From assembly GCA_017503725.1 (NCBI GenBank), contig JAFVSL010000010.1, forward strand, positions 1 through 64,000: a stretch of 64,000 bases of DNA, read 5' to 3'. This DNA comes from Alphaproteobacteria bacterium. Lineage in GTDB: Bacteria > Pseudomonadota > Alphaproteobacteria > Rs-D84. The stretch's first letter is position 1, and every line of letters begins with the position of its first letter. Made by a program: the position numbers and the translations under genes. The notes below the pieces were generated by a model. It saw only the letters and a list, made by a program, of their open reading frames with translations. It ran no database searches and was not told the origin of the DNA. Shown one piece after another: positions 38,618-46,817 of this stretch.

Positions 38618-38805
38618 TATAATTGGCGATGTTACGGCGATTGCCGTGATGGGGATTAACAACCCCTGTAGTTGTTCGAAAGAACATAAAAATCCAAACC
38701 CAATTTTCTGGGGTTGGATGGTGCTTAATATGTTGAATATGCACGCTATTGCTACAGTAGTTGTTAACGTCCAACCCCATCTGTTTCTTACAGATGGTTT
38801 TTTTA
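38618..38805 (+). ncRNA. structured RNA A: multi-stem leader with terminator upstream of a small ORF
   Basis: TATAAT at 38618-38623 is followed by a hairpin (ACGGC/GCCGT, 38634-38647). A closing helix pairs 38649-38654 with 38775-38780 and 38656-38663 with 38760-38767. A second helix CTGTAG/CTACAG pairs 38666-38671 with 38752-38757. Three inner hairpins are a GAAA-capped one at 38673-38686, ATCCAA/TTGGAT at 38692-38719, and GTGC/GCAC at 38721-38744. GGGGTTGGA (38710-38718) can also pair with TCCAACCCC (38770-38778). A terminator (CATCTG/CAGATG plus T7) ends at 38804. RNA B at 46.4 kb has the same plan. It accounts for the gap 38503-38830. Confidence 0.65.
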
Positions 38806-38830
38806 TTCGCAAGAAAAAGAGGGTTCGTTT

Positions 38831-39070
38831 ATGGAATTGGTAGAAGCAGAAGGGCAGTTGTCTAATATTCTCGATGACCTGGAAGGGTTCTTTAAAAGGC
38901 ACCCGGGCTATGAAACGAATAGTATGACGTTAATGCGTTTGATGAATCTTGTGTACAAGGAACTGTGCCTGTATCTTTCCCGGTCCAAGCGATATGTTCT
39001 TGATATCCAAGAGGCCGATTCCGACATATCTGTACGTGAAATAATAAAGCGGAAAAAAGGTGTACTGTAA
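38831..39070 (+). CDS. small protein of unknown function behind RNA A
   Basis: This 79-aa, helical, charged protein has no signal peptide and no recognised family. It starts 26 bases after the terminator of structured RNA A, with AGAGGG upstream of the ATG. The arrangement suggests that read-through of the terminator controls it. It ends 46 bases before the rpsB promoter's -10 region. Confidence 0.5.
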   Translation: MELVEAEGQLSNILDDLEGFFKRHPGYETNSMTLMRLMNLVYKELCLYLSRSKRYVLDIQEADSDISVREIIKRKKGVL

Positions 39071-42533: not shown

Positions 42534-42613
42534 AATACTCTACCTTTGATTAATAGCGTGCCTAAATTTATAACAAAAATAGGGAAAAGTCAAGTGTTGT
42601 TTTCACTTTTTTC

Positions 42614-46279: not shown

Positions 46280-46340
46280 TAAAAGCAAACCCGATGGACT
46301 CACGTAACTTCTGTACGCTTCGCCATCGGGTTTGCTTTTA
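46280..46340. repeat. long perfect hairpin downstream of clpB
   Basis: 18 bases at 46280-46297 are the exact complement of 46323-46340, with a 25-base loop. ATCT stands on both outer sides. It may end clpB transcription (TTTTA on the 3' arm) or be a small inserted palindromic element. Confidence 0.65.
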
Positions 46341-46395: not shown

Positions 46396-46572
46396 TTGAA
46401 TTACACATTTTTATGATTTATAATGGGCTGGCATTGGGAAACCGGTGTGAGGCCTCAAAACCTCTAAGGGAATCTCCAACATTGGTTGGAGGGTTGCGAT
46501 ATATCTAAATAAGCACGCTATTACTCTTAATAGTTTTGAGCCTCCAACCGCCTTGAATTGTGGCGGTTTTTT
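46396..46572 (+). ncRNA. structured RNA B: homologue of RNA A, upstream of a small HTH gene
   Basis: The promoter is TTGAAT (46396) - 17 - TATAAT (46419). A GAAA-capped hairpin CATTGG/CCGGTG (46432-46447) follows. Closing helices are GAGG/CCTC (46449-46452 with 46541-46544) and CTCAAAAC/GTTTTGAG (46454-46461 with 46533-46540). A second helix TAAGGG/CTCTTA pairs 46465-46470 with 46524-46529. The hairpin CTCCAAC/GTTGGAG (46474-46491) has an alternative partner: GGTTGGAGG (46484-46492) with CCTCCAACC (46541-46549). GCACGCTATT at 46513-46522 is identical to RNA A. Terminator CCGCC/GGCGG plus T6 follows. The gap 46257-46598 is thereby explained. Confidence 0.65.
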
Positions 46573-46598
46573 GTTTAACAAAAAAGATGGAGGAAAAA

Positions 46599-46817
46599 AT
46601 GAGTGTAATCTTGGTTGATGCCAGATATCTGGGGCATTATTTGAAACGCGCCCGGCGTACATTAAATTTAACGCGTAATGAGTGTGGAAAGGCGCTAAAC
46701 ATATCACATTCAGAAATAATGAAACTGGAAAACGGCAAGATTTTAATAAGTGAAAGGTTGCTGGAAAAAATAATGGTAAATGGATTAACGATGATTTTGT
46801 GCAAAAGGCGTAAATAA
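46599..46817 (+). CDS. small helix-turn-helix (XRE/Cro-like) protein
   Basis: This 72-aa protein contains an HTH segment (KRARRTLNLTRNECGKALNISHSEIMKLENGK) of the lambda-repressor type. GGAGG six bases before the ATG supports the start. It begins 27 bases after the terminator of structured RNA B, so its expression may depend on terminator read-through. It is a likely DNA-binding regulator with unknown target. A bidirectional terminator follows. Confidence 0.7.
   Translation: MSVILVDARYLGHYLKRARRTLNLTRNECGKALNISHSEIMKLENGKILISERLLEKIMVNGLTMILCKRRK

Follow-up and report, generated by a model that had tools for sequence, protein, structure and literature searches.

The question raised by this locus is whether the structured RNA (RNA B) that precedes a small regulator gene controls that gene in cis and, if so, by what kind of switch. 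RNA B spans positions 46419-46601 of the window, by which we mean the whole 64,000-nucleotide stretch of DNA that was analyzed; unless stated otherwise, features lie on the plus strand. It opens with a promoter-like, exact -10 box (TATAAT, 46419-46424), followed by a 5' hairpin, P1 (CATTGG-GAAA-CCGGTG, 46432-46447), recognized by the folding energy of its region, and by hairpin P2 (GAGG/CCTC, 46449-46464), whose loop carries segment a (TCAAAAC, 46455-46461). Segment b (TAAGGG, 46465-46470) comes next, and the two correspond to the targets a1 and b1 of C4 RNAs. Hairpin P4 (CTCCAAC/GTTGGAG, 46474-46491) competes with the closing helix of a C4/sRNA-Xcc1-like body (46484-46549), an alternative pairing of 46484-46492 (GGTTGGAGG) with the distal strand at 46541-46549 (CCTCCAACC). 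The body contains P5 (46493-46516) and P6 (46518-46533), with b' (CTCTTA, 46524-46529) in the P6 loop and a' (GTTTTGA, 46533-46539) after it; a, a', b, and b' were recognized by their covariation. An intrinsic terminator (AACCGCC..GGCGGTT with a U-tract, T6; 46546-46572), whose 5' arm has 4 nt in common with the closing helix, is followed by an SD sequence (GGAGG, 46589-46593) and the ATG at 46599 of a 72-aa XRE-type HTH protein (ORF 46599-46817; Pfam HTH_31, E = 1.7e-8, above cut-off). This strand folds more stably than shuffled sequences (z = -4.3; 0 of 200 shuffles as stable). Every element that a first-pass annotation had proposed here (the 5' hairpin, P4, the alternative pairing, the terminator, the SD, and the ATG) is present at the positions given, and the long-range pairings a/a' and b/b' had been missed. 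A separate long hairpin (AAAGCAAACCCGATGG/CCATCGGGTTTGCTTTT, 46283-46340) between an AAA+ ATPase gene and RNA B is likely the terminator of the upstream gene.

The genome that carries RNA B, about 1 Mb in size and from a gut bacterium, proved to hold 34 homologous leaders, RNA B included. BLAST with RNA B reached 13 places in this genome; the larger count comes from a covariance model (R1) built from P4, P5, P6, and the distal strand of seven copies, which left out the 5' half and the terminator and included neither a nor b. The R1 count excludes a weak false match (contig C4, position 13369), and contig C11, whose ends overlap, was matched twice. The two ends of this 17-kb contig are identical over 89 bp, a stretch that lies within one RNA copy, and the contig is either a circular element or an assembly broken at the repeat. 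RNA A (38618-38807), upstream of a 79-aa gene (ATG at 38831), is among the detected copies (R1 match at 38698-38776; 40.7 bits; E = 5.6e-7); its assignment with RNA B to one RNA family in the first-pass annotation holds, while the "two loci" counted there fall well short of the 34. The 10-mer GCACGCTATT shared by RNA A and RNA B, which had been taken as a mark of the family, was overvalued: it occurs only 4 times in the genome, fewer than the 6 of its reversed control, two of these 4 sites are unrelated, and it is not kept across the family, RNA B's own duplicate reading GCGACGCTATT instead. One occurrence, at 42552-42561 on the minus strand before an apparent ribosomal protein L28 gene, lies outside the family. 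What the members share is structure rather than this 10-mer, and the conserved core of the family is CRCWAT.

The family is present in 177 of 201 genomes of the GTDB order Rs-D84 (Candidatus Enterousia and relatives), with as many as 47 leaders in a relative, and R1 also finds real homologues in nine genomes outside the order. Named records with the family belong to Candidatus Enterousia and other gut alphaproteobacterial MAGs; Enterousia has been placed in Rs-D84, with reduced genomes (PMC12306168). One leader copy was seen on a 3.1-kb contig labelled Prevotella sp. (L156), which is probably mis-binned, and two IMG/VR viral contigs (L200 and L201) contain the exact P4-P5 motif.

A common order, consisting of promoter-like box, P1, P2 with a in its loop, b, a variable P3, P4, P5, P6 with b' in its loop, a', distal strand, terminator, and SD-ATG, was seen in every copy of this genome, a few elements being weaker in one copy or another. 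An exact TATAAT lies 12 to 60 nt upstream of P2 in 31 copies (2.8% of random 48-mers), and the P1 region folds in 32 of 33 copies with differing sequences (minimum free energy, -7.8; shuffled, -1.9). In 11 of the 34 copies, P3 holds a second terminator-like hairpin upstream of the body, at a position resembling that of isrK in C4 loci, and such a hairpin would release a short a1b1 RNA. The P5 loop is conserved, unpaired, and A-rich (AAUA..GAAUA), and no conserved cleavage-site motif was seen in the P4 loops of the copies. Outside the order, several homologues (L229-L237, L244, and L245) have a post-body hairpin with a UCAUCA-like loop, and G417 has one that lacks a U-tract and is immediately followed by an SD.

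A duplicate of RNA B lies on contig C10. Few positions differ between the two loci in the ORF (6 of 217), the terminator and untranslated region (2 of 58), P1 (1 of 20), and P4 (0 of 18), but many do in P2-a-b (14 of 29), P5-P6-a' (15 of 47), and the promoter region (15 of 30). The specificity segments and the promoter were thus changed or exchanged, with pairing retained. Such mosaic differences, like the many dispersed copies, would also suit a mobile or recombining DNA repeat that lies before genes by chance, but this explanation is very improbable: the RNA covariation is strand-specific, the order of promoter, leader, and gene is found in every copy, and RNA B had no match in phage and plasmid collections.

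Covariation supports these pairings, strongly so for a/a' and b/b'. In an alignment of 98 homologues that was fitted to P4, P5, and P6, 98.9% of cells are paired, with a covariation score of 0.486, compared with 0.152 after shuffling and at most 0.045 after sliding; for P4, 98.2% of cells are paired, and both sides have changed at five of seven pairs. P4-5', P4-3', and the distal strand change together, R1 treating the distal strand as unpaired: contiguous pairing between P4-3' and the distal strand is 8.8 within a copy and 6.4 between copies, the best of 5,000 permutations reaching 7.3. The compensatory change with retained pairing reported in the first-pass annotation is thus real, and the proposed alternative partner of the hairpin's 3' arm is conserved by three-strand covariation; a lack of covariation, or loss of the alternative pairing in homologues, either of which the annotation had named as evidence against its proposal, was not what we found. 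The a' segment, directly 3' of P6, pairs with a, and the P6 loop pairs with b, directly 3' of P2. With a and b delimited in the copies of this genome (two misparsed, one left out), the mean complementary run is 6.7 for a with its own a' and 3.7 for non-self combinations, and 6.6 for b with its own b' and 3.6 when swapped; none of 20,000 permutations reached the observed value in either case. Both means are 7.0 in 102 copies from other genomes (permuted maxima, 4.2 and 4.0, respectively). This covariation counts as support, neither a nor b having been part of the R1 search model. When broad windows were used instead of the delimited a and b, the body's complementarity to its own upstream region was weak (P = 0.028). 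A wide-window 34-by-34 duplex-energy test contained noise from P1/P4 cross-matches between paralogues.

The body also connects these leaders to a described RNA, the C4/sRNA-Xcc1 type of antisense RNA familiar from phages and integrons. At gathering scores, Rfam recognized nothing in the copies of this genome, and most weak matches were irrelevant leader peptides or miRNAs; only RNA B gave a signal for sRNA-Xcc1 (RF02221), at 33.6 bits, below the gathering score of 53. Homologues found by R1 outside the order score for RF02221 as well, one of them (G455) at 66.2 bits, above gathering, and in the reverse direction a search of G142 with RF02221 recovers Enterousia copies (E = 6e-6) at loci that R1 marks as well. 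Because the copies of this genome score below the Rfam gathering thresholds, their link to sRNA-Xcc1 is transitive. Their fold, aligned to the RF02221 consensus, matches in closing helix, P5, P6, a', and closing strand; on covariance scores and fold, the leader body is a divergent relative of sRNA-Xcc1. Common to both are the closing helix, a P5 with an AAUA..GAAUA-type loop, a P6 with b', a', and an upstream a1b1.

sRNA-Xcc1 has been described as an sRNA of about 88 nt (PMC2996969), and its loci often precede mobile-element genes (SymE and BRO/KilA-N). At the genuine RF02221 loci (L247-L276), the body is flanked by two a-b elements, each significant by permutation: one upstream that is complementary to it, and one downstream that covers the ribosome-binding site of the next gene, which is SymE-, BRO-, or KilA-N-like. 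The 88-nt model therefore covers only the middle of an a1b1-body-a2b2 unit. Since these loci share this layout with C4, sRNA-Xcc1 seems to form the central portion of a C4-type unit, a statement that we did not find in a non-exhaustive search of the literature.

C4 RNAs are described as being cut by RNase P and as blocking ribosome-binding sites (PMC5320573). C4, together with c4-a1b1 and isrK (RF01695, RF03163, and RF01394), shows the order hairpin, hairpin with a1, b1, (terminator-like hairpin), body with b' and a', and gene, and its body is complementary to upstream targets, as it is in the gut leaders, each of which carries an a1b1 target upstream. C4 differs from the gut leaders in that its closing helix is long and lacks the P5 internal loop and in that it targets an a2b2 at the SD of antirepressors. 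There is no C4 sequence match in the gut leaders: none of the copies of this genome exceeds gathering for RF01695 or RF03163, and RNA A reaches 16.9 bits for c4-a1b1, while C4 loci score upstream for the c4-a1b1 and isrK models. Homology between C4 and the gut leaders rests on architecture rather than on a sequence score, and C4 and sRNA-Xcc1 were likewise compared with each other by architecture. The CI RNA of phage P4 is similar by description, not by sequence, in that antisense pairing to upstream and downstream complements acts on transcription termination; premature termination occurs through seqA/seqC, and IsrK activates in trans (PMC4825925). It differs in being a single phage locus and not a multicopy chromosomal regulon. 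Acinetobacter baumannii has 21 C4-like sRNAs, and those of Group 1 resemble the gut leaders in their number within one chromosome and their variable specificity segments; in the part of the source that we cite, they are described as processed sRNAs, with no mention of a gene-by-gene terminator-coupled leader (PMC5320573).

This relationship bears on the nature of the signal. The leader position, the terminator, the alternative pairing, the conserved unpaired P5 loop, and the large gene set would all be expected of a metabolite- or ion-sensing riboswitch, with the A-rich P5 loop, a/a', and b/b' forming a pocket for one ligand common to all copies. We consider this unlikely, given that a and b are variable and merely complementary, that sRNA-Xcc1 and C4 loci use this layout in an antisense design, for pairing with the ribosome-binding site that comes next, and that the downstream genes have no recognizable pathway in common. 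The relation to sRNA-Xcc1 and C4 suggests instead that the regulators may be locus-specific antisense RNAs rather than a shared ligand.

The gut leaders depart from their relatives on the 3' side. Xcc1-type loci have a2b2 at the next SD, almost no terminator, and no P4, which was not found in C4 loci either; in the copies of this genome, a downstream a2b2 at the SD was not found (P = 0.94, compared with P < 5e-5 for Xcc1-type and C4 loci). An intrinsic terminator follows the body, directly before the SD-ATG as first annotated, in 34 of 34 copies of this genome and 134 of 145 in relatives, compared with 1 of 22 Xcc1-type loci, 0 of 9 C4 loci, and 55 of 600 random stretches. In 32 of 34 copies, the 5' arm of the terminator and the closing helix have 3 to 4 nt in common; by the same measure, the overlap is 0 or -1 nt in RNA A and its twin. 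Mean energies are -11.7 kcal/mol for P4, -22.4 for the C4 fold, and -7.5 for the terminator, which falls to -2.3 kcal/mol without the shared 4 nt, a loss of about 5 kcal/mol. At the level of sequence and energy, the terminator and the closing helix are thus predicted to be mutually exclusive, as in an attenuator.

These leaders could alternatively be standalone sRNAs of about 150 to 250 nt that act in trans, the downstream genes being mere neighbors with their own expression. A terminator in every copy, the description of sRNA-Xcc1 as an sRNA, and the A. baumannii precedent agree with this; we nevertheless hold it to be improbable, since the spacing to the SD-ATG that comes next is nearly constant in 34 of 34 copies and in 139 of 145 from relatives, and since the overlap that couples the terminator to the closing helix is fixed at 3 to 4 nt. 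Between the two options offered in the first-pass annotation, a regulon under one signal and a family of standalone sRNAs, the placement argues for leaders, but locus-specific antisense RNAs may take the place of one shared signal.

The gut leaders have lost a2b2 and gained P4 and a terminator overlapping the closing helix by 3 to 4 nt. P4 and this terminator, both novel relative to Xcc1 and C4, are consistent with a terminator/antiterminator switch that uses the C4 fold as its antiterminator, and RNA B is, in our judgment, probably an antisense cis leader of the C4/sRNA-Xcc1 kind that was converted into a transcription attenuator. For the switching step and its signal, we infer the following course. 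As the leader is transcribed, P4 would be the first to form and the distal strand would stay free for the terminator, which would then fold and keep the gene off; if the body folds in the C4 manner, the closing helix would take the base of the terminator stem and the polymerase would read into the gene. Pairing of a1b1 with b'a' would bias the choice between P4 and the body, as C4, IsrK, and P4 CI RNAs do in phages, and could occur in cis or with a second transcript of that locus supplying its body or a 5' fragment. Copy-specific regulation in trans might predict avoidance of cross-pairing; among the a/b codes, no avoidance beyond chance was detected (b/b' runs of at least 6 in 3.9% of pairs within this genome and 3.2% of pairs between it and relatives).

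All 34 copies are followed by an ORF on the same strand, starting 46 to 116 nt past the distal strand. By a simple signal-peptide rule, the encoded proteins look secreted in 25 of 33 cases in this genome and 89 of 139 in relatives, and most others are XRE-type HTH proteins of 70 to 95 aa. The main secreted family consists of cysteine-rich paralogues of about 145 aa with seven invariant cysteines; it has no Pfam or PHROG match, and its confidently predicted fold (pLDDT, 86) has no match in the PDB or among viral models. We read the leaders as having been amplified mainly upstream of secreted cysteine-rich proteins and small HTH regulators. More tentatively, a phage-type immunity RNA may have been domesticated into 34 to 47 gene-specific switches per genome of about 1 Mb, each with its own a/b code and each controlling one variable secreted protein or regulator via an antisense RNA of the same locus; we regard this as possible but doubtful.

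These results recast sRNA-Xcc1, an 88-nt "trans-acting sRNA," as the central element of a control unit with three parts (a1b1, body, and a2b2) and indicate that a C4-type module can turn into a terminator-coupled leader. In these gut bacteria with reduced genomes, the leaders form a regulon that is among the densest of its kind known to us, with 34 copies per Mb and up to 47 in a relative. Should the switch operate as proposed, it would offer a means of regulating a family of secreted cysteine-rich proteins that had not been described before.
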